Below are positions 5,452-25,435 of a stretch of DNA of 39,504 nucleotides, in pieces. Origin of the DNA: Gammaproteobacteria bacterium (GTDB lineage Bacteria > Pseudomonadota > Gammaproteobacteria > Steroidobacterales > Steroidobacteraceae); the NCBI GenBank assembly GCA_015655465.1, contig JAATEY010000116.1, positions 1 to 39,504 on the forward strand, in the 5' to 3' direction. The position numbers and the translations under genes were made by a program. The notes beneath the pieces were generated by a model. That model searched no databases. It was not told the DNA's origin and was given only the letters and a program-made list of their open reading frames with translations. Each line of letters starts with the position of its first letter. Within the stretch, counting starts at the first letter, position 1.

Positions 5452-5663
5452 CCGCCGCCGCCGGCCCCGGTTGCACCCTTGGCGCCTTCGCGGACTTCGA
5501 AGACGTGATCCATGTATGACGACGACACCGGATCAGGATCGATCGCCATGATGGGATCGGCGAGGTGTTCGCGCTCGTAGGGTTTGACCCAGGGCTCAAG
5601 CGGCGCGCAGGCCGAGGCCGCCAGCAGGGCGCCCAGGCCTATGAACATCAACCGCTTGCGCAT
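5436..5663 (-). CDS. DUF4266 family small lipoprotein
   Basis: Cys-containing signal (LLAASACAPLEPWVKPYEREHLADPIMA) and C-terminal GGGGCGCS typical of DUF4266; overlaps the DUF3570 gene. Confidence 0.8.
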   Translation of the reverse strand: MRKRLMFIGLGALLAASACAPLEPWVKPYEREHLADPIMAIDPDPVSSSYMDHVFEVREGAKGATGAGGGGCGCS

Positions 5664-5671
5664 CGATCTTC

Positions 5672-6172: not shown

Positions 6173-6186
6173 CCAGCTCCTGGAAA

Positions 6187-7667: not shown

Positions 7668-10278
7668 TGTCGACCCATTCGGAAATCAGACGCAGCTCGG
7701 CTGACGTCAGGAAGGGCCTATGATCAACCCCGCTGCCTGCAACCGCAAATTTGTTGAAGAATCGTGTGGACCCGAGCGCATTTGTGGGTACGAGTGAGCG
7801 CTGGACCGGCACCGGCACCATCGTCGGCAGTCCCGTATCCGGGTCATTCGGACCGGGCACAAGTCTAACCTGCAAGGCTCCACCGACAACCTCCCGTTCA
7901 ACATCATTGAACAGCAATTCGCGGTAGGCCGTCATGTGCAACTGTTGCTCAGCCGATGGTGTGCCGGAAAGATCCAGATGTCCGGCGGGTTCACGTGCCG
8001 CGCCCATGGCGTCGGCCGGCGTGTGGCAGTTGATGCAGGTGTTGGCGCCACGATCCAGCGACCAAAGCGGGTGGATGTGCTGCTCGTAGTTGACGATGGT
8101 GCGGCAGGTGCTGCTCCAGGTGCCCATGCAGCTGGTGCGTACCGGTGGCGGTGTGTTGAAGCCGCCGGCCGTGCCATAGGTGTAGCTGAGTGAATCATCC
8201 GCCGGACGATTCGCACCCGCGGGAGTGGGATCGGTCCACACGTCGTCATATAACAGGTTCACGCTGGGCTGTTGCGAGCACAAGCTGCCGCTGACACAGG
8301 TAGTGCGTGCGCGGGCCTGGGCCATCGTGTCGCCGATCTCGGCACCGGCGGCCGTGGCGGCAAGTGTGGCCGGAAAGCGCACACCGGAGGCGGCGGCACC
8401 TGACCAGGGCACCGGCATGTGCGCACCGTCCCGGCCGTGCGAGCGATCCATCGCGCCGCCGGTTGCATTCTGGTGGCAGCCATTGCAGCGACGGATCTCA
8501 CCGGGCCGGATCTGCAGCCAGCTGCGATGCGCCTGGAACAGGCGGCGGCCATTCTGGTCGAGCACCGAGATGACAAAGGCGACATCCGCCGGCACGCGCA
8601 CCGACACCGAACCATCCGGCTCGATGGGCGCGTAGCCCAGTATTTCACGCATGTATCCGACGCCACTGCCGACCGCGATGTTGAACTTGATATCGGGGAA
8701 GTTCAGGTCCTTGTCGCCGATCGACACCGCCTTTTCGATGCGCAGGAAGCGTGCCGGCCGCCGCGCGGCAGTGCGCAGCGACGGGTTGGCAATGGTCGCG
8801 ATGTCGGCGGTTCCCGGCCCGGCATTGAGTACCGCGCCGTCGAAGTCATAGACGCTGCGGATCTCCAGCAAGCCGACGCCTTCACCGATCAGCGCCGGGT
8901 CAAAGTCCGCGCCAGCCAGCGTGTGGTCGAGCCGCACAGCGGGTGGTATGCGCGGCTGGGCCGCCACCAGATCCGTGATCATCACGCCTTCGACCGGCTG
9001 GAACAGCGGCTTGAAGGTGTTGTCTGCCGGGTCGAATACGAACGCGCTGTACAGCGACGGCGCAGGCTGCGCGTTTGGATCTGCCAGCCGCTGTGGCGTG
9101 CACGGAACGATGGTGGCTGGCGTAACCGTGCTGTCCAGCAGGCGGCACTGCGACCAGCTGACCAGGATGCGGTTGCTGCCATCCCACAGCGGGAATGCAG
9201 AGCGGAAGCGGCCGCCCACGGAAGGTCCCGCGACAGTCGAGACCTGGTTCGGAGTGGCGCGCGTCTGCGCAGGCCCGGGCAGGCCGGCACTGGCCGCCAT
9301 CGGCTGCGTGTTCTCGACGTAGGTGCTGGTGTCGATCACCACCAGGTCGCCACCAAAGTCCGAGTCCCTGAAGGGGCGCACCAGCGTCAGCACGCGGCCG
9401 TTCTGCATCTCGCGCGGACGGGTGAACTGGATGGTGGTCGGGCCGTTGGCATCGGGCGTGCCGGTCTGGTGACTGCGCGCGCCGTAGAGCAGCTGCAGGT
9501 CGGTGCCATCGGGATTGGCGGTGTACAGGTGCATGCCACGGCCACCGTTGGCCCCGTCCCAGCGCGTGAACAGCACCCGTCCATCGGTCAGCACCGACGG
9601 CCACAGGTCATGGCTCTGGTTGAAGGTGATCTGATGAATGTTGCTGCCGTCGCCATCCATCACGTGCAGCACGAAGGCGCTCTCGCTGCGATTGTCGGTC
9701 TGCGCCTCGAATCCCGCCTTGCTTTCGTCCAGCAGTATGGCCTTCGACTGACGCTGGCGGGTGGAGGTAAACAGGATGCGACCGTCCGGCAGATACTGCG
9801 GACCGATGTCATTGCCCTCCGAGGCGATGGTGTTCGAAGGAATCACACGATGCAGGATGTCGGTGGGAATGTCGTATTCCCAGATCTGCCAGCTCGGCTG
9901 CTTTTCCTCATCCTGGTTGGCTCCCAGCGGGCCGCGCATCGCAAACACGATCTTGCGGCCATTGGCCGAGACATCGACATCCTTGATGTCGTAGCGGTCG
10001 CTGCCGGTGACGCGTTCGGTGATGTTGCGTTCGACGGAGGAGGGCGAAGCGCGGTCACGAAAGAAAAGATCTGCATCGGGAGCGGTATCGCGCTGCTGGC
10101 GCAGGTCGTCCGCATCCTCGGGAATGGTGCGCTTCACATAGGCGATCGGAAAGTCGACCGTGCCGGGATCGGCACCCTGGCCGTTGCCGATACTGACGCT
10201 GCCGCCGCCGCTGCAGCCGGCCAGCAGCACGAATGCTGCTGTGCCGGCGGCACGACACAACCCTGAGATCCTGTTCAC
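7612..10278 (-). CDS. PD40 beta-propeller lipoprotein with HzsA-like (hydrazine synthase alpha-type) domain and two heme c motifs
   Basis: GTG at 10278 gives VNRISGLCRAAGTAAFVLLAGCSGGG with lipobox LAGC; propeller segments (LPDGRILFTSTRQ, LTDGRVLFTRWDGANGG); EILGYAPIEPDGSVSVRVPADVAFVISVLDQNGRRLFQAHRSWLQIRPGEIRRCNGCHQ; second motif CINCHTPAD. The 1191-aa ORF's N-terminal extension is antisense to the next gene. Confidence 0.8.
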   Translation of the reverse strand: MNRISGLCRAAGTAAFVLLAGCSGGGSVSIGNGQGADPGTVDFPIAYVKRTIPEDADDLRQQRDTAPDADLFFRDRASPSSVERNITERVTGSDRYDIKDVDVSANGRKIVFAMRGPLGANQDEEKQPSWQIWEYDIPTDILHRVIPSNTIASEGNDIGPQYLPDGRILFTSTRQRQSKAILLDESKAGFEAQTDNRSESAFVLHVMDGDGSNIHQITFNQSHDLWPSVLTDGRVLFTRWDGANGGRGMHLYTANPDGTDLQLLYGARSHQTGTPDANGPTTIQFTRPREMQNGRVLTLVRPFRDSDFGGDLVVIDTSTYVENTQPMAASAGLPGPAQTRATPNQVSTVAGPSVGGRFRSAFPLWDGSNRILVSWSQCRLLDSTVTPATIVPCTPQRLADPNAQPAPSLYSAFVFDPADNTFKPLFQPVEGVMITDLVAAQPRIPPAVRLDHTLAGADFDPALIGEGVGLLEIRSVYDFDGAVLNAGPGTADIATIANPSLRTAARRPARFLRIEKAVSIGDKDLNFPDIKFNIAVGSGVGYMREILGYAPIEPDGSVSVRVPADVAFVISVLDQNGRRLFQAHRSWLQIRPGEIRRCNGCHQNATGGAMDRSHGRDGAHMPVPWSGAAASGVRFPATLAATAAGAEIGDTMAQARARTTCVSGSLCSQQPSVNLLYDDVWTDPTPAGANRPADDSLSYTYGTAGGFNTPPPVRTSCMGTWSSTCRTIVNYEQHIHPLWSLDRGANTCINCHTPADAMGAAREPAGHLDLSGTPSAEQQLHMTAYRELLFNDVEREVVGGALQVRLVPGPNDPDTGLPTMVPVPVQRSLVPTNALGSTRFFNKFAVAGSGVDHRPFLTSAELRLISEWVDIGAQYYNNPIGLPAGFLN

Positions 10279-10521: not shown

Positions 10522-11703
10522 ATGAAACGATTCCACAATGTTCAGAGTGTCATCGCCGCAGCGCTGGCTGTCACGCTGTCGGTGTGTGCTGCCACCGCTC
10601 TGGCCGGCCCGGTACAACGGGCGCAGGCCAAGCGCATCCATGACCGCATTGCGGGCGTGCCGCCGGACGCGGTGGTGCTGAATCAGATGGAAGCACTCAT
10701 TGTCGCGAATCCGACAACCGGTCCCGTCGCAGCTGCCCGCATTGCGATGCAGGCGCCGAGCTTCTACACCACTGTTCTCAAGAACTGGGTCACGCCATGG
10801 ACCAACCGCGACCAGACGGCGTTCGCGCCGCTGAACGACTACACGGCAACGGTCATCGGGATGGTCCGCGACGACATCGATTTCCGCCAGGTGCTGAGCG
10901 GTGACATCCTCTACACAGGGGGTCCGGGTCTGCCTGCGTATTCGCCAGCCAACAACAACCTCTATCAGCAGATGGAGGACGACGATGTCGATCTGGGCAA
11001 GGACACCGTGCTGGTGAAAGGAACCCAGTCCGCGTATACCGGCCTGCCGTCGGCCGCCACTGCCGGCGTGATCACCACCCGCGCGGCAGCCCAGGCGTTC
11101 TTCATCGCCGGCACCAATCGCGCAATGTTCCGATTCACGATGATCAACCACATGTGCAAGGACATGGAGCAGGTCCACGACGTGCACCTGCCCAATGATC
11201 GTATCCGGCAGGACGTGAGCCGCTCACCCGGTGGCGACAGCCGGCTGTTCCTCAACAACTGCATCGGCTGTCACAACGGCATGGATCCGCTGGCGCAGGC
11301 CTTCGCCTACTACAACTTCAATGAGACCACCGGCCGCATCGAATACACCGACGGTCAGGTGCAGCCGAAGTACCTCATCAACATGGACAACTTCAAGCCG
11401 GGCTACATCACCCGCAATGACGGCTGGAACAACTACTGGCGCCAGGGCGCCAACACGGTGCTGGGCTTCAGCAGCCAGTTGCCGGGCAGTGGCAGTGGCG
11501 CGAAGTCGATGGGCCAGGAACTGGCCAACAGCGACCAGTTCGCCCGCTGCCAGGTCGAGAAGGTGTTCAGGACCGTATGCCTGAGGCCGCCGGTCAACGA
11601 TGCCGACCGCACTGAAGTCAACCGCATCATTGGTGTGTTCCGCAACTGCGGTTACAAGGTCAAGGACGTGTTTGCCGAGACCGCCGCAGTCTGCAAGGGG
11701 TGA
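10522..11703 (+). CDS. secreted c-type cytochrome-like protein, one CIGCH
   Basis: ATG at 10522, signal peptide MKRFHNVQSVIAAALAVTLSVCAATALA, heme motif NNCIGCHNGMDPLAQAF. Confidence 0.75.
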   Translation: MKRFHNVQSVIAAALAVTLSVCAATALAGPVQRAQAKRIHDRIAGVPPDAVVLNQMEALIVANPTTGPVAAARIAMQAPSFYTTVLKNWVTPWTNRDQTAFAPLNDYTATVIGMVRDDIDFRQVLSGDILYTGGPGLPAYSPANNNLYQQMEDDDVDLGKDTVLVKGTQSAYTGLPSAATAGVITTRAAAQAFFIAGTNRAMFRFTMINHMCKDMEQVHDVHLPNDRIRQDVSRSPGGDSRLFLNNCIGCHNGMDPLAQAFAYYNFNETTGRIEYTDGQVQPKYLINMDNFKPGYITRNDGWNNYWRQGANTVLGFSSQLPGSGSGAKSMGQELANSDQFARCQVEKVFRTVCLRPPVNDADRTEVNRIIGVFRNCGYKVKDVFAETAAVCKG

Positions 11704-11713
11704 GTAGATAACC

Positions 11714-14158
11714 ATGAACACATTGCGCTACCTTTCCGTGGTCGTGTCTGTCGCCCTGCTGGCTGCCTGCAGCGGCGGTGCACCTACCACCAGCAACCCC
11801 AACACCGCTCCGCCCACGGTTTCCGCCTATTCGGGTCCGGCGCCGCAGAGCGCGGCCGTGCAGTCGTTCCGTGTCAGCTTCTGGGAAAACATCAAGGCCA
11901 ACAACCGTTGCGGTGGCTGCCACAACGCCACCGGCCAGTCGCCGCGGTTTGCTCGCAACGACGACATCAATCTCGCGTATGCGGATGGCACCAGCCTCGT
12001 GAACCTGACGGAGCCGGACCAGTCAAAGCTGGTGTTGAAAGTGGGCGGCGGCCACAACTGCTGGCTGTCGAGCAATTCGGCCTGCGCCGACATCCTCACC
12101 ACCTGGATTCGCAACTGGGCGGGTGCGGCCGCAGGTGGCGGTGGCACGCAGATCCCGCTGAAGGTACCGGTCGATGTATCGGTGGGTCAGAGCAAGACCT
12201 TCCCCGATTCGGCGGCGGGATTCCAGTCGACCATCTGGCAGCTGGTGCGCGACCCCGCGCGCGGCAACTGCCTGCGCTGCCATGCACCCACTGCAGCGAC
12301 CCCGCAGTCGCCGTTCTTTGCCAGCGCCGATGTCAACGAGGCCTACGCCGCAGCACGTGCCAAGATCGATCTCGACAATCCGGCGCGCTCGCGCCTGGTG
12401 GTGCGCCTGCGTGAGGAATCGCACAACTGCTGGACATCCAGCTGCACTGCCGACGCCACCGCGATGCAGAACCAGATCGAGGCATTCGCCAACGGCATCA
12501 GCCTGACGCCGGTCGACGCGAACCTGAAGATCAGCAAGGCGCTGACACTCTACGACGGCACGGTCGCGGCCGGTGGCAACCGCTACGAAGCGAATACCAT
12601 CGCCAAGTACGAGTTCAAGACCGGCACCGGCAGCACCATATTCGACACCAGTGGTGTCGAGCCGGCGCTGAACCTCGGCATGTCCGGTGACATCACCTGG
12701 ATGGGTGGCTGGGGCGTCAACATCAAGGCGGGCGGCAAGGCACAGGGCACTACCACCGGCAGCCGCAAGCTGGCAGATCGACTCAAGGCCACCGGCGAGT
12801 TCGCCATCGAGTTGTGGGCCGCACCGGCCAACGTCACCCAGGAAGACGCCTACATCCTCAGCTATTCCGGTGGCGTGATGTCGCGCAACGTGACGCTGGC
12901 GCAGCGTGCCTACCAGTACGAGGCGCTGACCCGTTCCAGCACCACCGGCGCCAATGGCGCGCCGGCACTGCTGACGCGCGATGCAGATCGCGACGCGCAG
13001 GCTTCGCTGCAGCATGTCGTGCTCAACTATGACCCGGTCAACGGGCGCCGGCTCTATGTGAACGGCAATTTCACCGGTGACCAGGATCCGCGCGCCGGCG
13101 GCGCGCTGGGCGACTGGGACGACACCTTCGCCCTGGTGCTCGGCAACGAAACCTCCAACAACCGGCAGTGGCAGGGCGTCATCCGCTTCGCCGCGATCCA
13201 CAGCCGCACGCTGACTCTCGAGCAGATCCAGCAGAACTTTGCTGCCGGTGTCGGTGAGCGCTATTTCCTGCTGTTCAACGTCACGGCCCTGACCGGCATG
13301 CCGCAGAGCTACGTCATGCTCGAGGCCAGCGAATACGACAGCTACGGCTACCTGTTCACCAAGCCGACGTTCATCAGTCTCGACCCGGCTGCGCGTCCTG
13401 GCTCGATTCCGGTCGAAGGTATCCGTATCGGCATCAACGGTTCCGAAGCGCCGGTGGGCCAGGCCTATGCCAATGTTGCGCTTGCCATCACCGACGCGAA
13501 CTACGCAACGGGCACCGGCCAGTTGCTGTCCGAGGTCGGCACGATCATCGGCCGGCAGAAGGGGCCGGCTGCCGACCAGTTCTTCCTCAGCTTCGACCGC
13601 ATCGGCACCAATACCTACGTGCGTACGCCCGTCACCGGCATCACGCAGGCCCCGGTCGACCTGCCCGCGAAGTCGGACATCGGTGTGCGCACCTTCGAAC
13701 AGCTCAACCAGAGCATGTCGCGCATCACGGGTGTGGCCACTACCAACAGCGGCGTGCGCAGCACCTACCTGCAGGTGCAGCAGCAGCTGCCGCCGGTGGC
13801 GAGCATCGAGGCCTTCCTGGCGTCGCATCAGACAGGCGTGGCGCAGCTGGCGATCAAGTACTGCTCGGTGATGGTGGACAATCCCGCGACGCGTTTGGCG
13901 TTCTTCCCGGCCCTGGATATCGCGACTGCGCCCGCGGTGCAGTTCGCCGATGCCAACGGCAAGGACATCCTCGCCACGCCGCTGCTGCAGAAGGTCGTGG
14001 GTGCGAACCTGGCAAGCCAGCCGTCCGACGCGGCCGTGCGCAATGAGCTGCATGCGCTGATCGGCAAGCTGGCCGCGAAACCCGGTGCCAGCAGCGCCAC
14101 AGTGGCCAAGGCAGCTTGCGCGGCGGCGCTGGGCAGCGGCGTGTTGTCGATCCTCTAA
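11714..14158 (+). CDS. LamG/concanavalin-like lipoprotein with two heme c motifs
   Basis: Lipobox LLAACSGG; CGGCHNATG and CLRCHAPTA; FAIELWAAPANVTQEDAYILSYSGG...RLYVNGNFTGD...WDDTFALVLGNE typical of LamG. Confidence 0.8.
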   Translation: MNTLRYLSVVVSVALLAACSGGAPTTSNPNTAPPTVSAYSGPAPQSAAVQSFRVSFWENIKANNRCGGCHNATGQSPRFARNDDINLAYADGTSLVNLTEPDQSKLVLKVGGGHNCWLSSNSACADILTTWIRNWAGAAAGGGGTQIPLKVPVDVSVGQSKTFPDSAAGFQSTIWQLVRDPARGNCLRCHAPTAATPQSPFFASADVNEAYAAARAKIDLDNPARSRLVVRLREESHNCWTSSCTADATAMQNQIEAFANGISLTPVDANLKISKALTLYDGTVAAGGNRYEANTIAKYEFKTGTGSTIFDTSGVEPALNLGMSGDITWMGGWGVNIKAGGKAQGTTTGSRKLADRLKATGEFAIELWAAPANVTQEDAYILSYSGGVMSRNVTLAQRAYQYEALTRSSTTGANGAPALLTRDADRDAQASLQHVVLNYDPVNGRRLYVNGNFTGDQDPRAGGALGDWDDTFALVLGNETSNNRQWQGVIRFAAIHSRTLTLEQIQQNFAAGVGERYFLLFNVTALTGMPQSYVMLEASEYDSYGYLFTKPTFISLDPAARPGSIPVEGIRIGINGSEAPVGQAYANVALAITDANYATGTGQLLSEVGTIIGRQKGPAADQFFLSFDRIGTNTYVRTPVTGITQAPVDLPAKSDIGVRTFEQLNQSMSRITGVATTNSGVRSTYLQVQQQLPPVASIEAFLASHQTGVAQLAIKYCSVMVDNPATRLAFFPALDIATAPAVQFADANGKDILATPLLQKVVGANLASQPSDAAVRNELHALIGKLAAKPGASSATVAKAACAAALGSGVLSIL

Positions 14159-14193
14159 GGCAGACGGACTCTCAAGGAAAGGACCAGAAGACC

Positions 14194-15750
14194 ATGCGCT
14201 ACATCCGCAAGATCCCGAAGGGCCGGGGACTGAACGAACCGGTGCTGCACGCCGACCACCAGCGTCCGGTTTCGCGCCGCGATTTTCTTTCCGCGGGACT
14301 GGTCACCGGCACGGCCACCGTGGTGGTGCCCACCGCGATGAGCCTGCTCGCCGCGCAAGCGGCCCGCGCCGACGTCAGGGGCGACCTGAACTACCTCGGG
14401 CTCACCAACTGCGGCCTGGAAGGCGGTGCCGGCAGGATCCCGTTCATCTGCTTCGACCTTTCCGGCGGCGCCAACATCGCGGGCTCGAACGTGTTGATCG
14501 GCAAGCAGGGGGGGCAGCTCGATTTCCTCACGACGGCGGGTTATTCCAAGCTCGGCCTTCCCGGCAACATGACGCCGAATCTGCCCACTTTCACCGACTC
14601 CACTTTCGGTCTCGCCTTCCATTCCGACAGTGCATTCCTGCGTGGCATGAAGATGCGTGCCACGGCCGGAACCGCTGCCAGCACCAATGGCACGATCATC
14701 GCGGCACGTTCGGAGAACGATACCGCCAACAATCCACACAATCCCATGTATGGCATTGCCCGCATCGGCGCGAAGGGCCAGCTGCTGACGCTCATTGGCT
14801 CGGTCAGTTCGGATTCCGGCGGCAACTCCACGGCGCCCATCGCGATGATGGATCCCAAGGTGCGCCCCACGAAGGTGGATCGCGCCAGCGATGTCACGGG
14901 CCTGGTCGATACCGGTGAGCTGGGCACCCTGTTCCCGGATCCAAATGATGCCGTTGCGGTGATGGAGTCGATGGCGGTGCTGACGAACAGCAAGCATGGC
15001 GCGGTCACCACCGGCCTTGCCAACGATGCGGCATTGAAAGACTTCAACAAGTGCGGCTATGTGAAGTCGGCCTATCTGGCCGAGCAGTTCAATAGTCCCG
15101 CTGCGCTCGATCCGGGTCGTGATACGCGGGTGGTTGGTGCAGGTGGCATCTTCACCCAGGCGGAATACAACGGCGACAGCGAGTTCCGCAAGACCGCCGC
15201 CGTCATGAAGATGGTGATCGACGGCAATGCCGGTGCGGGCACCATCCAGATGGGTGGTTTCGACTATCACACCGGCGAGCGTGCCACCGGCGAGATGCGC
15301 GACCTGCGCGCCGGCCAGTGCATCGGCGCCTGCCTGGAGTACGCTGCGCGCGCCAATCGTCCACTCATGCTCTACGTATTCAGCGACGGTTCGCTGTCGT
15401 CCAGCGGCATGATCGACAATTCGGTCAATGGCCGGGGCAAGGGTGTGTGGACGGGTGACAACCAGGCTACGGCGTCGGCGTTCTTCCTGGTGTTCCGCCC
15501 CGGCCAGCGGCCGGTGCTGCGCGCCCCGACCCTGAACCAGATCGGCTGGTTCAGCGGCGATGGCTCGGTGGTGACTTCGTCGCACCCGGGCGCCAATGCA
15601 GTCAACCTGCTGGTCGAACTGGTATTGCTGAACTACATGGGCCTGCATGGGCAGGAAGGCCAGTTCGCGTCGGCGGGGCTCTTCCCGGGCCAGGGCCTGG
15701 GCGGCACCACCCAGCGCGACGCGCTTACCGCTTTTGCGCCGATCGTGTGA
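14194..15750 (+). CDS. twin-arginine signal protein, DUF1501-like
   Basis: SRRDFLSAGLVTGTATVVVPTAMSLLAAQAARA Tat-like leader; ...PFICFDLSGGANIAGSNVLIGKQGGQLDFLTTAGYSKLGLP and YVFSDGSLSSSGMIDNS resemble DUF1501/alkaline-phosphatase-superfamily layout. Start at ATG 14194. Confidence 0.6.
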   Translation: MRYIRKIPKGRGLNEPVLHADHQRPVSRRDFLSAGLVTGTATVVVPTAMSLLAAQAARADVRGDLNYLGLTNCGLEGGAGRIPFICFDLSGGANIAGSNVLIGKQGGQLDFLTTAGYSKLGLPGNMTPNLPTFTDSTFGLAFHSDSAFLRGMKMRATAGTAASTNGTIIAARSENDTANNPHNPMYGIARIGAKGQLLTLIGSVSSDSGGNSTAPIAMMDPKVRPTKVDRASDVTGLVDTGELGTLFPDPNDAVAVMESMAVLTNSKHGAVTTGLANDAALKDFNKCGYVKSAYLAEQFNSPAALDPGRDTRVVGAGGIFTQAEYNGDSEFRKTAAVMKMVIDGNAGAGTIQMGGFDYHTGERATGEMRDLRAGQCIGACLEYAARANRPLMLYVFSDGSLSSSGMIDNSVNGRGKGVWTGDNQATASAFFLVFRPGQRPVLRAPTLNQIGWFSGDGSVVTSSHPGANAVNLLVELVLLNYMGLHGQEGQFASAGLFPGQGLGGTTQRDALTAFAPIV

Positions 15751-15811
15751 ACGGAATCATTGTCACGCGGCACCAGCGCGCTATCCTTGGCGCATACTGT
15801 TAAATAGTCGC

Positions 15812-16339
15812 GTGGTGCTTGCTGCTGTGCGGAATCGATCCAACTCCTTTTTTCTGCTGGCAGCAGTGCTGCTGGGCGCAGGCCTGTGCAGCGCCGCCGA
15901 ACTGCGCTATGGCCTGCAGGGGCAGGCGGCTCCCGACTTCGCCCTGCGTGCCACCTCGGGTACCAATTTCCGGCTGTCGGAGCATCGTGGCGATGTGACG
16001 CTGCTGGTGTTCTGGGGCAGTCGCTGCGGCCAGTGCGGTGCGCAGCTGGCAATGCTCAGCCGCATGGTGGACACCTACCGTTCGGCGGGGCTCGCGGCGC
16101 TGGCCGTGAACGTCGATGACGATCAGGTGGCCGCGGCGGAGTTTGCCATGGCGCATCCGGTGAGCTTTCCGGTGCTGCTCGATCCCGCCAAGACCGTCGC
16201 CAGGCAATATCGGGTGGACAACCTGCCCATGCTGCTGCTGGTCGATCGCGCGGGCGTCATCCGCCATGTGCATCGCGACTATCGCAGCGGCAGCGACGCC
16301 CGGTACCTGGACCAGATCAAAGTTCTTCTCGACGAGTAG
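15812..16339 (+). CDS. TlpA/redoxin-like protein with CGQC active site
   Basis: LLVFWGSRCGQCGAQLAMLSRMVDTYRSAGLAALAVNVDD...YRVDNLPMLLLVDRAGVIRHVHRDY; GTG start at 15812 or 15815. Confidence 0.8.
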   Translation: MVLAAVRNRSNSFFLLAAVLLGAGLCSAAELRYGLQGQAAPDFALRATSGTNFRLSEHRGDVTLLVFWGSRCGQCGAQLAMLSRMVDTYRSAGLAALAVNVDDDQVAAAEFAMAHPVSFPVLLDPAKTVARQYRVDNLPMLLLVDRAGVIRHVHRDYRSGSDARYLDQIKVLLDE

Positions 16340-16359: not shown

Positions 16360-16920
16360 ATGAAGCGTTCGTTCCATCAGGCATCCATACTGCTCGCGCT
16401 GCTTGCCGTCACGGGATTCGCCGCTGCGGCCGAAGTGCCCGCACCCGCCGCCGCACCCGCTGCTGCTCCCGACACCCGCGCGCTGGATGAAGAAATCCAG
16501 TCGATCAAGAAGGATGTGGTCGACCTGAACCGCGACCTGTTCGTGCTGGAGGAGGAACTGCTGTTCCCCGCCAACACCCAGGTGGCCGTGTTCCTGTCCA
16601 TGGATGTGGGTGATTTCTTCGCCCTCGATACCGTCGAACTGCGGGTCGACGACAAGCAGGTGGCGAAATACCTCTACACGCCGCGCGAAGCCGAAGCGCT
16701 GCTGAAGGGCGGCGTGCAGCGGCTGTATCTCGGCAATCTGCGCGTGGGCAATCACGAGCTGGTGGCGCTGTTCACCGGCAAGGGGCCAAACGGCCAGGAC
16801 TACTCGCGCGGCGCGCAGCTGAAGTTCGAGAAGTCCGTGGGCGCAAAGTATCTGGAACTGAAGATCGCGGACCGGCAGCGCAAGCGCCAGCCCGAGTTCG
16901 AAATCAAGGACTGGGAATAA
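16360..16920 (+). CDS. hypothetical secreted protein, 186 aa, first gene of Agl/Glt-like cluster
   Basis: Signal peptide MKRSFHQASILLALLAVTGFAAAAEVPAPA; coiled-coil-like LDEEIQSIKKDVVDLNRDLFVLEEELLFP. Confidence 0.75.
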   Translation: MKRSFHQASILLALLAVTGFAAAAEVPAPAAAPAAAPDTRALDEEIQSIKKDVVDLNRDLFVLEEELLFPANTQVAVFLSMDVGDFFALDTVELRVDDKQVAKYLYTPREAEALLKGGVQRLYLGNLRVGNHELVALFTGKGPNGQDYSRGAQLKFEKSVGAKYLELKIADRQRKRQPEFEIKDWE

Positions 16921-16927
16921 CGCGCGC

Positions 16928-18832
16928 ATGCTGCGCAAGGCCTTCATCGTCTGCCTGCTTGCTGCAACGTCTGGCATGACGTCGCTGCCGGCAGCGGCTG
17001 CGCGCAAGAAGGCGGACAGGATTCCTGCTACCCGCGTGCAGGATCTGCACTACGGCGATGTGCTGTTCCAGACCTTCATCGGCGAGGATTTCGAAGCCCT
17101 TACACGTCTGGAAGCCTATTCCCTGTGGCAGCAGATGCCGCATCACAAGGGCGAGGCGGACCTGCTGGCCGGGGGGCTGTACCTGCAGCTTGGCATGCAC
17201 AATGAAGCGGGGCGGCGCTTCGAGACACTGCTGGGCCCGGAGATTCCGGCCAGTGTGAAGGCGCGCGCCTGGTTCTATCTCGCCAAGGTCTGGTATGTGC
17301 GCGGCTACTACGATCGCACCATCGACTCGCTGGGCAGGATAGAAGGCAAGCTGGAACCTGCGCAGGAAGCCGAGCGGGTGCACCTTGCGGCCAACGCGCT
17401 GATGCATCTGGAACGTTACGACGATGCCATCGCATTGCTCAGTGGCTGGACCAGCCGCAGCACCTGGATGCAGTACGCGCGCTTCAATCTCGGGGTGGCG
17501 CTGTTGCGCAGCAATCGCCTCGCCGACGGCGCGCAGTTCCTCGATGCCGTAGGTGCCCAGCACAGCCGCGACGAAGAAATGCTGGCGTTGCAGGACAAGG
17601 CCAATCTCGCGCTGGGTTTTGCCTACATGCAGGCCAATGACCCTGCAAAGGCCATGCAGAGCCTCGAGCGTGTGCGGCTGGATGGGCCGCAGTCCAGCCG
17701 CGCGTTGCTGGGGCTGGGCTGGGCCAATGCGGCGCTTGAAAAATACGACGACGCGTTGACTCCCTGGCTTGCGCTGCGCGAGCGCAACCTGCTGGATGCT
17801 GCCGTGCAGGAAGCCTGGCTCGCCGTCCCCTATGCCTTTTCCAGGCTGGGCGCCAATGCCCAGGCCGCCGAGTACTACGAGCAGGCGCTCACTTCCTTCG
17901 GCAGTGAGCAGGGGCGCATCGATGCCTCCATCGCCCGTATCCGCGAGGGCGGCCTGCTGAACAACCTGCTGGGCGCAGACGATGCCAACTCCCCGCAGCG
18001 CGGCTGGTTCTGGCAGCTGCAGGAACTGCCGGATGCGCCCGAGTCGCGCTACCTGTTCCCGGTGCTGGCCAGCAATGACTTCCAGGAAGGCCTGAAGAAC
18101 TTCCGCGACCTTGCCTATCTCGGGTCGACGTTGTCGCGCTGGGACGAAAACATGGTGGTCTACGCCAACATGATCGAGACGCGCGAGAAGGCCTATGCCG
18201 AGCGCATCCCGCGCGCGGACGCACTGCTCGCCGGCGGCGCAACCGAGGCGCTGGCCTCACGTCGCAAGGCAGTGGAAGGGCGCTTCAACGACATCATCAT
18301 CATGGAAGACGTGGCCGCCCTGGGTACGGCGGAGCAGCGTGCGCAGTGGCAGCGTATTGCCGGGATCGAGGCCGGGTTGGCGGCAGAGCCCGACAGTGAG
18401 GAAACCACCGCGAAGCGCGACCGGCTGCGCCTGGTGAAGGGCGTGCTGTACTGGGATCTGCGCCAGAGTTATCGCGAGCGGCTGAATCGGCAGCGTGGGG
18501 AGTTGAAGTCCCTGGACGCCGCGCTGGCCGAGGCCAATCGGCGCTGGCTGCGGGTCGAGCAGGCGCGCAGGACGGCGCCGAGCACCACCGGCGACTTTGC
18601 AGCGCGGATCGATGCACTGCAGGCGCGCATGACATCGCTGCGTGCCAAGCTGCGCGATGCAGCGAAGGCGCAGAGTGACCTGCTCGCCGATATCGCCGTG
18701 GCGGAACTCGAGACGCAGAAGCAGCGCATCGCCGACTACGAGCTCCAGGCCCGCTTCGCGCTCGCAACCATTTATGACCGCGCGGCAGAATCGCCGCGGC
18801 CCGCACCCGCACCCGGCGCAGGTACGCCATGA
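16928..18832 (+). CDS. secreted tetratricopeptide-repeat protein, 634 aa
   Basis: Signal peptide; TPR-like helical repeats (ARAWFYLAKVWYVRGYYDRTIDSLGRI, SRALLGLGWANAALEKYDDALTPW). Confidence 0.8.
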   Translation: MLRKAFIVCLLAATSGMTSLPAAAARKKADRIPATRVQDLHYGDVLFQTFIGEDFEALTRLEAYSLWQQMPHHKGEADLLAGGLYLQLGMHNEAGRRFETLLGPEIPASVKARAWFYLAKVWYVRGYYDRTIDSLGRIEGKLEPAQEAERVHLAANALMHLERYDDAIALLSGWTSRSTWMQYARFNLGVALLRSNRLADGAQFLDAVGAQHSRDEEMLALQDKANLALGFAYMQANDPAKAMQSLERVRLDGPQSSRALLGLGWANAALEKYDDALTPWLALRERNLLDAAVQEAWLAVPYAFSRLGANAQAAEYYEQALTSFGSEQGRIDASIARIREGGLLNNLLGADDANSPQRGWFWQLQELPDAPESRYLFPVLASNDFQEGLKNFRDLAYLGSTLSRWDENMVVYANMIETREKAYAERIPRADALLAGGATEALASRRKAVEGRFNDIIIMEDVAALGTAEQRAQWQRIAGIEAGLAAEPDSEETTAKRDRLRLVKGVLYWDLRQSYRERLNRQRGELKSLDAALAEANRRWLRVEQARRTAPSTTGDFAARIDALQARMTSLRAKLRDAAKAQSDLLADIAVAELETQKQRIADYELQARFALATIYDRAAESPRPAPAPGAGTP

Positions 18833-21800
18833 AGCTGCGGCGCACAGTGTGGATGGCCGCAGCAGCAGTGGCGATCAGCAGCGCCGCTTTCGGCGCGGCC
18901 AGATCGCAGCCGGCGCCGACACTCAAGGATCTGCCCCGGCGCCAGGTCGAGATCCGCAAGGATGCACCGACGGACAACAATGCCGCCAAGGCGATGGACA
19001 ACTACCGGAAATTCCTGGAACTGCAGAAAACCGACCCGGCCCTGCGTGCCGAGGCGCTGCGGCGGCTCGGCGACCTGTCGCTGGAAAATGGCGAGCTGGA
19101 ACGCATGGAGACCGAAGTCACGCGAGTGGATCTCGGCGGCGCGGAAGCGATCCGGCTTTACACGCTGCTGCTGAAGGCGCATCCGGACTACCCGCGCAAT
19201 GACCAGGTGCTCTACCAGCTGGCACGCGCCTACGAAACCACCGGTCAGCCCGACAAGGCGCTGGCGACCCTGGACGACATCGTGCGCCGCTATCCCGCGT
19301 CGCGTGACCTTGCCGAGTTGCATTTCCGTCGTGGCGAGCTGCTGTTCTCGGCGCAGAAATACCGCGATGCGGAAGCGGCCTATGCGGAGGTCACCCGCCG
19401 CGGTGCCGGAGCTTTCTACCAGCAGGGTCTGTACAAGCAGGGTTGGGCGCTGTTCAAGCAGAACCTGAACGAGGAAAGCCTGCCGGTGTTTGCGCGCCTG
19501 CTCGACGTCAAGCTGCGCGATGCCTCTGCCGCGCGTGGCTTCCGGCCGCTCGAATCCCTGCCGCGCGCCGATCGTGAGATCGTGGACGACACGCTGCGCG
19601 TGATGAGCGTGACGTTCTCGTATGCAGAGAGCATCGAACCGCTCAACCGCTTCGTCGACAGCATCGGCAAACCTCCGTATGCCGCATTGCTGTATGCGCG
19701 CCTCGGCGACCTCTATGTCGACAAGCAGCGCTACCAGGACGGTGCCGCGGCCTATCGCGCCTTCGTGGTGCGGGAACCGGACAACGAGTTCTCGCCCGGC
19801 CTTTCGACGCAGACCATCGAGGCCTACCGCAAGGGCGGGTTCGCCCAGCTGGTGCTCCAGGGCAAGCGCGAGTACGTCGAGAACTACAATCTCGGCACCA
19901 GCTTCTGGCAGGGCCGCGACCGCGCCAACTATCCGCAGGTGATCGCCGAGATCAAGGCGCACCTCGCCGATCTGGCTGCCTACCACCATGCAGCGGCGCA
20001 GAAGAGCAGGCATGCGGACGATTTCGCCCAGGCTGCACGCTGGTATCGCCTGCAGTTGCAGTCCTTTCCCCAGGATCCGGAATCCGCGCAGGTCAATTTC
20101 CGCCTGGCTGACGTGCTCTACGAAGGTGGCCAGTTTGCTGCCGCGGTCGATGAATTCGAACGCTCCGCCTACGCCTATCCGGTGGGTCCGGATTCCGCCA
20201 AGGCCGCCTATGCGGCGCTCGGTGCCTACCAGAAGCAGCAGCCGCTGCTCGCGGAAGGCGAGCGCGCGGCCTGGAAACTGCGCTCCATCGAATCGGGTGT
20301 GAAATTTGCGCAGGCCTTTCCTGAGCATCCAGACGGATCCGGTGTGCTGGCCCGCGCCGCCCAGGATCTGTACGCCGCGAAGAATCTGCCGCGTGCCATC
20401 GAAGTGGCGGCTCTGGTGGTCAACCGGAATCCTGCGGCCAGTACCGCGCAGCAGCGCATCGCGCATGGCGTGGTGGGTCAGGCGCGCTTTGACCAGGGCG
20501 AGTTCCAGGCCGCTGAACAGTCGTGGTTGCGGGCGCGTGAACTCGCCGCCGACGATCCCGCGCTGCAGAAGAGCCTCACCGAGCAATTGTCGGTGGCGGT
20601 GTATCGCCAGGCCGAGGCCAGGCGTGCCGCAGGCGATACGGCGGGCGCGGCCGATGATTTTCTGCGTGTGGCAAGCGTGGCGCCGGGCACGGCAGCAGTG
20701 GAAACAGCCCGGTACGACGCCGCCGCCGAACTGATCAAGGCCAGGGACTGGCCGCGCGCCATCGGTGTACTGGAGGCATTCCGGCGCGACTACCCGAAGA
20801 GCAGGCAGCAGCCTGATGTCACGCAGAAGCTGGCGGTGGCCTACATGGAGGGCGGTCGCGCGGATGCCGCAGCTGCGGAGTTCGAGCGCATTGCAGACGC
20901 CAGGGACCAGGCGCCGGCATTGCGGCTCGAAGCGCTTGGAATCGCTGCGGATCAATACGAAAAAAGCGGCAACGACGCGAAGACCATCGCATTGCTGGAA
21001 CGCCTGGTTGCCGGGTTTCCGGCGCCCGTGGCGGAGCGGATCGAGACCCGCCAGCGTCTGGCGGACTTTGCGGCCAGGGCCGGCAACAACGAACGGGTCG
21101 CCTACTGGCAGCGTGAAATCGTGAAGGCCGATGCCAGCGCGGCAGCAGCCCGCAGTGATCGCACGCGTTACCTGGCTGCCAGGGCCAGTCTGGCGCTGGC
21201 AGCGCCGGCGCGCGACAGCTTCCGCGCCCTGAAGCTCGGCTCGCCGCTGCAGCGTTCCCTGGCGGTCAAGCGCCGCGCGCTCGAAACCGCGCTCGCGGGC
21301 TACAAGGCCGCCGCCGCGTACAACATTGCCGAAGTGACCACGCAGGCCAGCTTCGAGATCGCCGAGCTCTACGGTCAGCTCGGCGCAGACCTGATCGCGT
21401 CGGAGCGGCCGAAGAAGCAGTCCGCCGAGGTGCGCGAGCAGTACGACCTGATGCTGGAAGAGCTGGCGACACCGATCGAGGAACAGGCCATCGCCCTGCA
21501 TGAGGCCAACGTGGCGCATGCCCGCGACGGCATTTTCGACGCCGGCGTGAAGGCGAGCTACGCTGCTCTCGCCAGGCTGCTGCCGGCCCGCTATGGCAAG
21601 ACCGAGTTGCCGGGCAACTACCATGATTCGCTGGTACTGCCGGTGGGCATGCAGCCGGTGGCGGAGGCTGGCGCGGGTGGCGCGGGAGTTGCGCCACGGG
21701 CCGCTGCTCCACAGCCTTCGGGGCGACTGGTGGCACAGCACGAGCGCGCGCTGGCGCAGGCCAATGCGGGCCAGGCAGCGGATGCCGAGCTCGAATTCAG

Positions 21801-22233
21801 GCGGCTGATGGAGGCCACGCCGGAATTCGGTGGTGCGGCCTACAACCTCGGTGTGTTGCTGTTCGGCCTGCAGCGGCTGGACGAGGCTGAAGCTGCCCTG
21901 CTCGAAGCCGCGCGCCGCGCGCCGCGCAGTGACGTGGCACTGACCGAACTCGGACTGGTGCAGCGGCAGCTCGGCAAGTTTGCCGCCGCCGCCGCTTCCT
22001 ACGAGAGGGCACTGCAGGCCAATCCGGAGCATGCTCCGGCATGGCGCAATCTCGGTGTCGTACGCGATATGTATCTTGGCGATCCCGCAGCCGCGGTGGA
22101 GCCATTCGAGCGTTACAAGGCGCTCACCGGTGAGGACCGGCCCATTACCAGCTGGATTGCAGATGTGAAGCAACGTGCCGGCAGGCGCGATGCCGCAATA
22201 TCCACGCCGGAAGCAAAGGCGGAGGTCCGATGA
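18829..22233 (+). CDS. large secreted tetratricopeptide-repeat protein, 1134 aa
   Basis: Signal peptide; many TPRs (NDQVLYQLARAYETTGQPDKALATLDDIVRRYPAS; GGAAYNLGVLLFGLQRLDEAEAALLEAARRAP); 4-nt ATGA overlap with the upstream gene. Confidence 0.85.
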   Translation: MKLRRTVWMAAAAVAISSAAFGAARSQPAPTLKDLPRRQVEIRKDAPTDNNAAKAMDNYRKFLELQKTDPALRAEALRRLGDLSLENGELERMETEVTRVDLGGAEAIRLYTLLLKAHPDYPRNDQVLYQLARAYETTGQPDKALATLDDIVRRYPASRDLAELHFRRGELLFSAQKYRDAEAAYAEVTRRGAGAFYQQGLYKQGWALFKQNLNEESLPVFARLLDVKLRDASAARGFRPLESLPRADREIVDDTLRVMSVTFSYAESIEPLNRFVDSIGKPPYAALLYARLGDLYVDKQRYQDGAAAYRAFVVREPDNEFSPGLSTQTIEAYRKGGFAQLVLQGKREYVENYNLGTSFWQGRDRANYPQVIAEIKAHLADLAAYHHAAAQKSRHADDFAQAARWYRLQLQSFPQDPESAQVNFRLADVLYEGGQFAAAVDEFERSAYAYPVGPDSAKAAYAALGAYQKQQPLLAEGERAAWKLRSIESGVKFAQAFPEHPDGSGVLARAAQDLYAAKNLPRAIEVAALVVNRNPAASTAQQRIAHGVVGQARFDQGEFQAAEQSWLRARELAADDPALQKSLTEQLSVAVYRQAEARRAAGDTAGAADDFLRVASVAPGTAAVETARYDAAAELIKARDWPRAIGVLEAFRRDYPKSRQQPDVTQKLAVAYMEGGRADAAAAEFERIADARDQAPALRLEALGIAADQYEKSGNDAKTIALLERLVAGFPAPVAERIETRQRLADFAARAGNNERVAYWQREIVKADASAAAARSDRTRYLAARASLALAAPARDSFRALKLGSPLQRSLAVKRRALETALAGYKAAAAYNIAEVTTQASFEIAELYGQLGADLIASERPKKQSAEVREQYDLMLEELATPIEEQAIALHEANVAHARDGIFDAGVKASYAALARLLPARYGKTELPGNYHDSLVLPVGMQPVAEAGAGGAGVAPRAAAPQPSGRLVAQHERALAQANAGQAADAELEFRRLMEATPEFGGAAYNLGVLLFGLQRLDEAEAALLEAARRAPRSDVALTELGLVQRQLGKFAAAAASYERALQANPEHAPAWRNLGVVRDMYLGDPAAAVEPFERYKALTGEDRPITSWIADVKQRAGRRDAAISTPEAKAEVR

Positions 22234-22679
22234 GGCATGCAATACTGAAATGGTCGCTGCTGATGCTGGTTGCGCCGGCATGGGCCATGGAGCCTGTTCC
22301 CGCCGCCACCGCGGCGCCAGCGCCTGCCGTTCCGCCAGCGTCGACCGTCAAACCTGCAGCAGCTGCACAGGCATCCCGTTCACTCGAACCCGCGGTGCGG
22401 ACAACACCGCCCGCAGTGGCAAAGCCGGCACAGGACCGGCTCGAACTTGACGCGACCCAGATCACGGGCAACCGTGAGTTGCCGCGGGTGCTCTACGTGG
22501 TTCCCTGGAAGCACCCTGATCTGGGGGATCTGTCCGGCAAGCCGGCCAACAGCCTGCTGGATGAAGTTCTGGCACCGGTGGATCGTGACGTCTTTCGGCG
22601 ACAGAACCGCTACTACCAGGCCCTGAAGCCGGACTCGGCCGGCGCGGGCAAGGCCACTGGCACAGAGGGTGAGAAATAG
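22230..22679 (+). CDS. hypothetical secreted protein, 149 aa
   Basis: ATGA overlap with upstream TPR gene; signal peptide, Ala/Pro-rich linker, then compact domain LELDATQITGNRELPRVLYVVPWKHPDLGDLSGKPANSLLDEVLAPVDRDVFRRQNRYYQ. Confidence 0.75.
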   Translation: MRHAILKWSLLMLVAPAWAMEPVPAATAAPAPAVPPASTVKPAAAAQASRSLEPAVRTTPPAVAKPAQDRLELDATQITGNRELPRVLYVVPWKHPDLGDLSGKPANSLLDEVLAPVDRDVFRRQNRYYQALKPDSAGAGKATGTEGEK

Positions 22680-22749
22680 GTCGCAGCAATTTCGCTGCAT
22701 AGGTTTCAAGGTGCGCAGGAGTCTTGCGCACCAGCAAGGGAGTCTCCAG

Positions 22750-23406
22750 ATGGATGTCTTTTCGACGATTGCCCGCTTCTTCCAGAACGGTGGGCACTTC
22801 ATGTATCCAATCGCGGTGGTGCTGGTCATCGGCCTCGCGATTGCCCTTGAGCGCTATGTGTATCTGACGGTTACACGCAGCCGCAACCGCGCCACGTGGC
22901 AGCAGGTCGAGCCGCTGCTCGGGCAGGGCGATTTCCGCCAGGCGGCACAGGTCGCATCGCAGTCGGAATCCGCGGTGGGACAGATCCTCACCTACGGCCT
23001 GACGCGCATCCAGAACGCCAAGCGCCGTGACGACATCGAGAAGGCCATGGAAGAAAGCCTGATGGGTATCGTGCCGAAGCTTGAAAAGCGTACCCACTAC
23101 CTCGCGACTTTCGCGAACCTGGCAACCCTGCTGGGTCTGCTCGGCACCGTGATGGGCCTGATCAGCGCGTTCAGCGCCGTGGCCACGGTGAATCCGGCCG
23201 AAAAGGCGAACCTGCTGTCCGCCAGTATCTCGGTGGCGATGAACTGCACGGCCTTCGGTCTGATGACTGCAGTGCCGTTGCTGGTCATCCATGCCGTCAT
23301 CCAGACCAAGACCACCGAACTGATCGACAGCCTGGAGATGGCCTCGGTGAAGTTCCTGAACTCCATCGTGGAGCGCCGTACGGAAGCAGCCCAGGCCAGC
23401 GCCTGA
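22750..23406 (+). CDS. MotA/TolQ/ExbB proton channel family protein
   Basis: GGHFMYPIAVVLVIGLAIALERYVYL; HYLATFANLATLLGLLGTVMGLISAFSAV; MNCTAFGLMTAVPLLVIHAVIQTKT. ATG 22750. Confidence 0.93.
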   Translation: MDVFSTIARFFQNGGHFMYPIAVVLVIGLAIALERYVYLTVTRSRNRATWQQVEPLLGQGDFRQAAQVASQSESAVGQILTYGLTRIQNAKRRDDIEKAMEESLMGIVPKLEKRTHYLATFANLATLLGLLGTVMGLISAFSAVATVNPAEKANLLSASISVAMNCTAFGLMTAVPLLVIHAVIQTKTTELIDSLEMASVKFLNSIVERRTEAAQASA

Positions 23407-23447
23407 AGTACCGGTGCAAGTCCAGCCGACTGTAAGGATTCGTTCCG

Positions 23448-23978
23448 ATGCGTCGTAACTACGCCATGCGCAAGCTTGAGCGGCGGCACCGCAAACCCGC
23501 GGAGCTGCTGCTCGTGCCCATGATCGACATCTTCACGGTGCTGGTCACTTTCCTGCTGATGACGGCGGTGTTCTCGCGCACCGTGATCCTGGAGCTGAAA
23601 CTCCCCAGCCAGAGCGCGGATTCGGTTCCACTGCCACCCGGCCTGAGGCTGGAAGTGCTGCTGCGCCAGAACATGGTGCAGGTGGCCGACAGCAACTCGG
23701 GCCCGCTCAAGACTTTTCCGCGCAAGGACCGCAGTCAGCCCTACGACCTCGCAGGACTTGCCGCATTTCTCCAGGAGGTCAAGGCGAAGTATCCCGACAT
23801 GACCGACGCAACGCTGTTGCTGGAGAAGGATATTCCCTACGACTCGCTGGTGCAGGTGATGGATGCCATGCGCCTGGTCGAGCAGCGCCAGGGCACCCAG
23901 CTGGTGCAGGCCGAGCTGTTCCCCAATGTGTCCATTGGCGATGCGCCCGAGATCGATGCGCCGGGAGCAAGGCCATGA
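23448..23978 (+). CDS. ExbD/TolR family protein (first copy)
   Basis: LLLVPMIDIFTVLVTFLLMTAVFSRTVILELKLP with the TM Asp typical of ExbD/TolR. Confidence 0.9.
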   Translation: MRRNYAMRKLERRHRKPAELLLVPMIDIFTVLVTFLLMTAVFSRTVILELKLPSQSADSVPLPPGLRLEVLLRQNMVQVADSNSGPLKTFPRKDRSQPYDLAGLAAFLQEVKAKYPDMTDATLLLEKDIPYDSLVQVMDAMRLVEQRQGTQLVQAELFPNVSIGDAPEIDAPGARP

Positions 23979-24496
23979 TGTCCAGCCGCGCGCGTCGCAT
24001 GATGATGCACCACCTGCGCAACCGGAACGAATCCGAGCTGAACCTGATCCCGATGATCGACATCCTGTCGGTGCTGGTGTCGTTCCTGCTGGTTTATTCC
24101 ACCGAAGTCGAGGTGGTGCAGAACAGCAAGGGCATCGAGATTCCCGAATCGATCGTGACTGCCAAGCCGCGCGAGACGGTGGTGGTCATGCTGACGAAAG
24201 ACGAGCTGTTCGTGCAGGGCGAGCGCGTGGCATCCATCGCCGAAGTGCAGGCCATCGATGGGCTGATCATCGCGCCGCTGCGCGAAGCCCTGCTGCGCCC
24301 GCGCATCATCGGCAAGGCCATGGCCGAGCGCGAGCTGGCTGACCGCGAAGTGACCGTCATGGCCGACAAGACATTGCCTTACGAGGTTCTGAAAAAGGTG
24401 ATGAGCACCTGCACGGACGCCGATTTCGGCAAGATCTCGTTTGCCACCATGCAGAAGGACAAGGCGCTGGCTCCCGGCGCCTTCCAGCCGAAGTAA
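23975..24496 (+). CDS. ExbD/TolR family protein (second copy)
   Basis: ELNLIPMIDILSVLVSFLLVYSTEVEVVQNSKGIEIPES; 4-nt overlap with the first copy. Confidence 0.9.
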   Translation: MMSSRARRMMMHHLRNRNESELNLIPMIDILSVLVSFLLVYSTEVEVVQNSKGIEIPESIVTAKPRETVVVMLTKDELFVQGERVASIAEVQAIDGLIIAPLREALLRPRIIGKAMAERELADREVTVMADKTLPYEVLKKVMSTCTDADFGKISFATMQKDKALAPGAFQPK

Positions 24497-24508
24497 CGCG
24501 GAGCCATC

Positions 24509-25435
24509 GTGGTACTTGCACCTTATTACCGTAGCTACGATCTTCCCTGGGAGGGCGATCCGGACTCGGGCCGGCGCTTCCGTCGCCTGCTGGTCATCGG
24601 CCTCACGCTGTTCGTGGTGCTGGGCATTCTGGTGCCGGTGCTGCATCTGCCGCGGCCGAAGGAAGCCGCTGCAGAAGCAGTGCCGGAGCGCCTTGCCCGA
24701 TTGATGGTGGAGGAGAAGCCCCAACCGCCGCCTCCTCCTCCTCCCCCCCCGGCGCCAGCCGAGCGGCCAAAGCCCGAGAGCAAACCGGAGCCCAGGCCAG
24801 TACCCCAGCCGGTGGATCGCACCGCCGAGGCGCGCAAGCAGGCCGAGCAGTCGCTGAAACGGGTACGCGATGAACTGGAGGATCTGCGCCGCGATCTGAC
24901 CAGGGATCTGCCGAGCCAGACCCGCAATCTCACCGGCGCCGTCGGCGCCGAGAGCAAGGCGGAGCGTTCGCTCATTACATCGAAGGCCGGCGCGGGCAGT
25001 GCCGGCGTGCAATCGACCAACAGCAGCCGTGGCTTCGGTTCCGGCGCCGGTTCGCTGACCGGCCACTCCGCCACCTCGGTCAATTCGCGCGTGGCAGCCA
25101 TCGGTGCGGAGAACAAGGCCATCCGCACCGGCAGCAGTGGCAAGGCCGCCCGCGGCCAGGAGGAAATCGAGCTGGAGTTCGATCGCAACAAGGGCGCGAT
25201 CTATGCGCTGTACAGCCGCGCGCTGCGCGACCGGGCGGACCTGCAGGGCAAGATGGTGCTGGAATTCACCATCGCGCCTTCCGGAGAAGTTACCGCCTGC
25301 CGTGTAGTGTCCAGCGAACTCAATGACCCCGAGCTGGAGCGCAAGATCATTGCGCGTGTGCGCCTGATCCGCTTCACCGCGCGTGATGTGGAAAGCATCA
25401 CCACCACCAAGCCGATCGAGTTCTTCCCGGGCTGA
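24509..25435 (+). CDS. AgmX/PglI-C-terminal-like / TonB-like protein
   Basis: Single N-terminal TM, PQPPPPPPPPPAPAERP linker, coiled-coil-like segment, C-terminal IELEFDRNKGAIYALYSRALRDRADLQGKMVLEFTIAPSGEVTACRVVSSELNDPELERKIIARVRLIRF. Confidence 0.85.
   Translation: MVLAPYYRSYDLPWEGDPDSGRRFRRLLVIGLTLFVVLGILVPVLHLPRPKEAAAEAVPERLARLMVEEKPQPPPPPPPPPAPAERPKPESKPEPRPVPQPVDRTAEARKQAEQSLKRVRDELEDLRRDLTRDLPSQTRNLTGAVGAESKAERSLITSKAGAGSAGVQSTNSSRGFGSGAGSLTGHSATSVNSRVAAIGAENKAIRTGSSGKAARGQEEIELEFDRNKGAIYALYSRALRDRADLQGKMVLEFTIAPSGEVTACRVVSSELNDPELERKIIARVRLIRFTARDVESITTTKPIEFFPG

Follow-up and report, generated by a model that had tools for sequence, protein, structure and literature searches.

The subject of this analysis is a stretch of 39,504 nucleotides (contig JAATEY010000116.1 of GenBank assembly GCA_015655465.1), here called the window, from a gammaproteobacterium of the family Steroidobacteraceae. 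Eight genes on the + strand, all reading in one direction and lying within 16360-25435, encode the parts of an Agl/Glt-type machine, and a second block of genes upstream of this core (4288-16339), here called the module, encodes outer-membrane barrels, a CxC lipoprotein, TlpA-like proteins, haem proteins and a Tat-exported protein. The core is already known; what appears to be new is its pairing with an outer-membrane module of predicted redox proteins, with which it is co-inherited in one clade of relatives. The core consists of the following genes.

16360..16920, + strand: X186, secreted protein of 186 aa, core gene 1; N-terminal helix and Ig-like beta-sandwich
16928..18832, + strand: secreted TPR protein of 634 aa in the GltC position (Pfam TPR)
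18829..22233, + strand: secreted TPR protein of 1134 aa, GltD-like plus GltE-like (Pfam TPR, hhalign, GltE model)
22230..22679, + strand: Y149, small secreted protein of 149 aa with a conserved GNxELP...VPWK motif
22750..23406, + strand: AglR-like ExbB/TolQ channel subunit (MotA_ExbB); open reading frame from 22669, conserved start at 22750
23448..23978, + strand: ExbD1 (AglQ/AglS-like), 176 aa; ExbD domain with transmembrane Asp27
23975..24496, + strand: ExbD2 (AglQ/AglS-like), 173 aa; ExbD domain with transmembrane Asp
24509..25435, + strand: GltG/AgmX-like TonB protein, 308 aa, GTG start (NF033768, NF033760, TonB_C)

This arrangement agrees with an earlier reading made from the DNA letters alone (the sequence-only reading), which had reported packed co-directional genes with ATGA overlaps: three such 4-nucleotide overlaps are present (18829/18832, 22230/22233 and 23975/23978), and all eight open reading frames were recovered at the coordinates it gave. 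Its parts list also stands, as the Pfam matches (MotA_ExbB at 5.9e-28, ExbD at 3e-17 twice, TonB_C at 3.9e-6, and TPRs) and the sequences themselves yield one ExbB, two ExbDs that both carry a transmembrane Asp within PMIDI, and large TPR proteins. The TonB-like protein, composed of one transmembrane helix, a Pro-rich stalk and a C-terminal domain, has the proposed AgmX/PglI tail (NF033768, 4.5e-17, 62 bits against a cut-off of 40); its match to the GltG model NF033760 (1e-9) covers the C-terminal region only and lies below the equivalog cut-off. The best start of the window ExbB is the conserved ATG, which gives a protein of 218 aa. This ExbB clusters with other core ExbBs, clearly apart from the other TolQ/ExbB proteins of its own genome, and none of the curated equivalog cut-offs for TolQ, TolR, ExbB, ExbD or TonB is reached, all scores being far below them (TolQ 61.7 vs 221), with only broad TonB_C models passed. 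These scores and the separate ExbB speak against a Tol-Pal or plain TonB-ExbBD system, and the separate ExbB, the GltD homology described below and the AgmX/PglI tail uphold the assignment to the Agl/Glt type. The genome as a whole holds eight genes of the MotA/TolQ/ExbB family, on separate contigs.

Luciano et al. (2011, PMC3169522) described a single cluster of Group B genes, the Agl-Glt "core complex", in Gammaproteobacteria and Geobacter; it holds gltC, D, E and G, aglR, Q and S together with an additional gene, and its function there was unknown. The window shares with this complex one ExbB, two ExbDs, a TonB-like protein, TPR proteins, an extra gene and the single cluster, and, in the window as in its relatives, all core genes lie in one cluster outside the Myxococcales. 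Judged by homology and gene order, the eight-gene set is this core complex and not in itself new. Of the complete loci examined, about 120 from Gammaproteobacteria, Betaproteobacteria and Geobacter/Geomonas, almost all repeat the core gene order, an arrangement far beyond chance; the core genes stay together in relatives and are not split, splitting being what the sequence-only reading had named as evidence against itself. The window differs from the published core in that its GltD-like and GltE-like parts are fused, in that its 634-aa protein lacks a match to the GltC model, and in that it adds the outer-membrane redox module, of which the available part of that paper makes no mention. The module is composed as follows.

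4288..5451, - strand: DUF3570 outer-membrane barrel (PF12094, 1.6e-38) with a putative ApbE flavinylation site, DNITSAS
5436..5663, - strand: DUF4266-type small lipoprotein ending in GGCGCS, assigned by the CxC description in PMC8238504 and not by a Pfam model
5672..6172, - strand: TlpA-like thioredoxin (Redoxin 5e-31, AhpC-TSA 8e-30)
6187..6894, - strand: outer-membrane beta-barrel, TIGR04565 OMP_myx_plus (3.5e-44, 150.6 bits against a cut-off of 60)
6864..7667, - strand: SH3-like domain plus outer-membrane barrel of the Glt barrel family (TIGR04565 8e-9, TIGR04211 9e-9, both below cut-off)
7612..10278, - strand: dihaem lipoprotein resembling hydrazine synthase alpha (HZSalpha-like); middle domain PF18582 3.5e-17, beta-propeller repeats PD40 6e-6, two CxxCH
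10522..11703, + strand: secreted monohaem protein with a weak PSD2/DUF1585 C-terminus (Pfam match below cut-off)
11714..14158, + strand: dihaem lipoprotein with a LamG/concanavalin-like domain (Laminin_G_3 8e-16; lipobox LLAAC)
14194..15750, + strand: Tat-exported protein of 518 aa (weak Tat signal model; Tat-like motif in 24/27 relatives)
15797..16339, + strand: TlpA/ResA-like thioredoxin, start uncertain, directly 5' of X186 in most clade-1 loci

That the core and the module belong together is indicated by their distribution. The 634-aa homologues of 59 relatives were sorted by identity and tree into two clades, with clade 1 comprising 37 of the 59 (one, G032, on a fragment) and the others numbering 22. 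The HZSalpha-like protein is present in 34/37 clade-1 genomes, the short type of DUF3570 in 35/37 and a TIGR04565 barrel over the cut-off in 34/37, as against 0/22 of the others for each marker. These counts leave aside a long type of DUF3570, which is found whether or not the core is present. Presence and absence of the core clade and the module are concordant inside genera g1, g4 and g7, and in many gammaproteobacterial families the module adjoins the core, in some cases in divergent orientation and in others immediately 5' of X186. The core and the complete module block are both found in Microbulbifer donghaiensis (L167, L174). Several clade-1 genomes (L170-L173) have the core on one contig and the module on another, and the divergent layout of the module itself is retained there. 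A wider sample of 274 genomes, drawn evenly across the class and scored for the 634-aa protein at E<1e-30, gives the same picture: 36 of the 38 genomes with the HZSalpha-like protein also have the 634-aa protein, vs 57/274 overall, while 21 have the 634-aa protein alone and 215 have neither (Fisher p 9e-28 for the association, ignoring phylogeny). The two apparent cases of HZSalpha without a core were rejected as exceptions, as L176 holds a divergent core and L175 a broken HZSalpha remnant without barrels. In the latter, from the complete and core-less genome G096, the genes for the PSD2-like, LamG and Tat proteins remain, the HZSalpha-like gene is in fragments only, and the barrels, DUF3570 and DUF4266 are all missing, as in an apparent decaying remnant. 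No description of the core-module association was found in the open-access literature, and the pairing appears to be unreported.

The barrels of the module provide a link to the Glt machinery itself. The sequence-only reading had seen no Glt/MglA regulatory parts here; taken to mean that further Glt parts are absent, this does not hold, given the two barrels at 6187-7667 of the family that directly precedes GltC-like genes in other Glt loci; the barrel with the SH3-like domain is a weak paralogue of its TIGR04565 neighbor. In Myxococcus xanthus, GltC is bound by two paralogous outer-membrane barrels, GltB and GltA, and the genes are ordered gltB-gltA-gltC (PMC4488436). Paired paralogous small outer-membrane barrels may be a feature common to the M. 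xanthus machines and the window. In 5/5 Desulfobacterota loci, the gene directly upstream of a clear GltC-model protein is a TIGR04565 barrel over the cut-off, an order that mirrors that of M. xanthus, and the next gene after the GltC-model gene, where readable, encodes a TPR protein. One Myxococcales-titled sequence set (L148) gave no match to TIGR04565. The family's presence in the Desulfobacterota loci and in the window suggests that Glt-type outer-membrane parts may not be confined to the Myxococcales and Bdellovibrionales. One of these Glt-type loci, in Desulfatitalea, runs from a TIGR04565 barrel through GltC-model and GltD-like proteins to thrombospondin-type-3-repeat and VWA proteins that resemble the myxobacterial cell-cohesion proteins MtsC/MtsD.

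The M. xanthus AglRQS-Glt and AglRQS-Nfs machines (PMC4488436, PMC3858216) further share with the window the motor type, the AgmX/PglI tail and a GltD-like TPR protein. Unlike these machines, the window has no Pfam FHA match on its GltG-like TonB protein, its barrels lie on the opposite strand, and it adds DUF3570, the CxC lipoprotein, TlpA and the haem proteins. GltF, GltH-K and the MglA/AglZ regulators were not seen within the window, the rest of the genome not having been searched for them.

Topology, surface exposure and redox function of the module are predicted from its sequences. Haems of the c type are predicted in three secreted or surface proteins, five in all, and the CxxCH motifs are conserved: two in 28/29 relatives for the LamG protein, one in 28/28 for the PSD2-like protein and mostly two in the HZSalpha-like protein. 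The C-terminal CxC of the DUF4266-type lipoprotein is found in 25/25 relatives. DUF3570, the CxC lipoprotein and a thioredoxin-like protein are shared with the DUF3570-DUF4266-thioredoxin-ApbE clusters of Meheust et al. (2021, PMC8238504), in which DUF3570 proteins are ApbE substrates, and ApbE itself lies inside the cluster or at most 4 kb away from it in 6/11 module-bearing genomes tested. The genome of the window has ApbE on contigs other than that of the window. The DUF3570 motif D-x-x-[ST]-[SGA]-A-S is present in 22/24 relatives, with DxxTSAS in the window; conservation of the canonical SGAS flavinylation motif was rejected, as [ST]GA[ST] occurs in 7/24 only. Flavinylation of DUF3570 by ApbE is possible from these motifs. 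Compared with the published clusters, the DUF3570 here is of a short subfamily with mostly DxxSSAS rather than DxxSGAS, no DsbD was seen, and the genes are linked to a motor driven by proton motive force, to Glt-family barrels and to haem lipoproteins.

The HZSalpha-like protein shares its middle domain and two CxxCH motifs with hydrazine synthase alpha (PDB 5c2v) and its distant homologs (PMC12758564). The likeness is local (1.2e-10 over residues 512-582, 71 residues), the protein here is a lipoprotein, and no gene for a beta-gamma subunit was recognized; hydrazine chemistry is not implied. The model of the Tat protein (pLDDT 79) weakly resembles the alkaline phosphatase/sulfatase superfamily, with a best Foldseek E of 1e-3 and low TM-scores. 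Two further genes of the window lie outside the module: a di-haem oxidoreductase (DHOR) gene at 1186-2520, near the left edge, which adjoins the end of a probable TonB-dependent receptor gene, and a gene at 27517-28881, 3' of a KefB-like antiporter gene, for a secreted protein with one CxxCH and no Pfam match.

Among the core proteins, the sequence-only reading had suggested comparing the 1134-aa protein with GltD/AgmU. About residues 1-950 are indeed GltD-like, and a GltE-like TPR domain occupies about residues 970-1110 (GltE model, 3e-8, residues 976-1104). The GltD homology is seen in the alignment of the large TPR protein with a Desulfatitalea GltD-like protein (hhalign probability 99.6, E 1e-23, 793 columns) from a locus where a TIGR04565 barrel and a GltC-model protein are also encoded. 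Most relatives have two genes in place of that for the 1134-aa protein, encoding a TPR protein of ~930 aa and a TPR lipoprotein of ~200-250 aa, the latter matching the GltE model NF033758 at up to 8e-13, a TPR similarity that is generic. The window protein is therefore a probable GltD::GltE fusion, a form found in the window and its close relatives. No support was found for the 634-aa protein as GltE/AglT, with which the sequence-only reading had suggested comparing it; the GltE-like segment lies at the C-terminal end of the 1134-aa protein. X186 is the first core gene in about 120 loci and is possibly the additional gene of Luciano et al. without a Myxococcales homolog; its AlphaFold2 model (pLDDT 84) is an Ig-like sandwich, for which a fold search against the PDB gave no significant or informative match.

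The two ExbDs differ in the conservation of their transmembrane acidic residue. In ExbD2 the Asp is invariant (111/111 relatives), whereas the ExbD1 position, across 113 loci, has Asn 88 times, Asp 24 times and Ser once; the window, which keeps Asp27 and with it two Asp residues, belongs to the smaller group. A tree of 36 loci, with ExbD2 as the outgroup, places the Asn forms of ExbD1 as one well-supported group inside the Asp forms. On these residues, most of the core family is predicted to be a motor with one acidic residue, the proton-binding ExbD1 Asp having been lost in most relatives. In M. xanthus, AglQ D28N abolishes function (PMC3858216), while it is not known if AglQ pairs with AglS as a heterodimer (PMC9389320). 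Whether both acidic residues are required in a 5:2 motor is a question for which the near-fixed change from Asp to Asn in one of the two ExbDs serves as a natural experiment.

Taken together, the gene content, homology, order and co-inheritance argue for a gammaproteobacterial Agl-Glt core machine that, in this clade, would act on a dedicated outer-membrane and surface redox module (probability about 0.58), since the core and the module adjoin each other and co-occur even when they are on different contigs. By analogy with the known machines, the AglR-type ExbB ring and its two different ExbDs would use the proton motive force to move the GltG-type TonB-like arm. The arm would act on the outer-membrane barrels via X186 and the two periplasmic TPR proteins, the GltD::GltE fusion and that of 634 aa, giving a predicted path of force from proton flow through the arm and the TPR proteins to the barrels. 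The targets in this clade would be the two Glt-family barrels, the DUF3570 barrel, the CxC lipoprotein, the thioredoxins, the three haem proteins and the Tat protein, with the haem and thiol proteins as the probable effectors of the motor, which may export redox proteins to the cell surface, position them there or cycle their conformation. The module is consistent with a role other than gliding, as the sequence-only reading had suggested.

Several findings weigh against this interpretation. The 634-aa protein and its relatives do not match the GltC model NF033756 even at E<=10, and profile comparison with GltC-like proteins gave a weak, short TPR match only (hhalign, E 2e-5, 95 columns); its identity as GltC is not confirmed, and the equivalence rests on position and that similarity. 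The DUF3570 proteins here mostly have Ser at the Gly of the canonical flavinylation motif (PMC12052999), the HZSalpha-like protein is absent from three clade-1 genomes, and the co-occurrence statistics take no account of phylogeny. In addition, the clade-2 core (61 loci, including those of Geomonas and Alcanivorax and the second copy in Microbulbifer) is never linked to the module, indicating that the core can do something without it. These clade-2 cores, and the genomes in which core and module lie on different contigs, would also suit a stand-alone Agl-Glt core complex beside which the redox genes travel as an independent system. This is the less probable account, as the module markers follow clade 1 even where the loci are unlinked and within single genera, and as two of the barrels are of the Glt family. 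Somewhat less probable again is a gliding or surface-polymer transport machine like those of Myxococcus, in which the LamG lipoprotein would be the substrate or bind the polymer; homology to the gliding and spore-coat machines, the Glt-family barrels and the LamG domain are in keeping with it, but gliding needs neither the five conserved haem motifs nor the thioredoxins, the CxC lipoprotein and ApbE. A TonB-ExbBD-type energizer of nutrient uptake via an outer-membrane receptor, for which the TonB_C-like C-terminus, ExbB and ExbD could speak, is very unlikely given an ExbB separate from those of the genome, large TPR proteins and Glt-family barrels in its place, and no TonB-dependent receptor noticed as a conserved neighbor, although no systematic search for one was made.

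If the core does act on the module, a more specific and tentative proposal is that it powers a proton-driven surface redox machine, in which the proton motive force might be coupled to extracellular electron transfer or surface redox chemistry, with haem- and flavin-bearing proteins being exported, positioned or cycled. To our knowledge, such a redox role has not been described for any motor of the ExbBD family. The pairing also provides context for two orphans, the DUF3570/DUF4266 clusters and the hydrazine-synthase-alpha-like proteins of non-anammox bacteria. For the gammaproteobacterial Agl-Glt core, the function of which has been unknown since 2011, the co-inherited module gives a concrete list of partners, making this function testable in cultured Microbulbifer.

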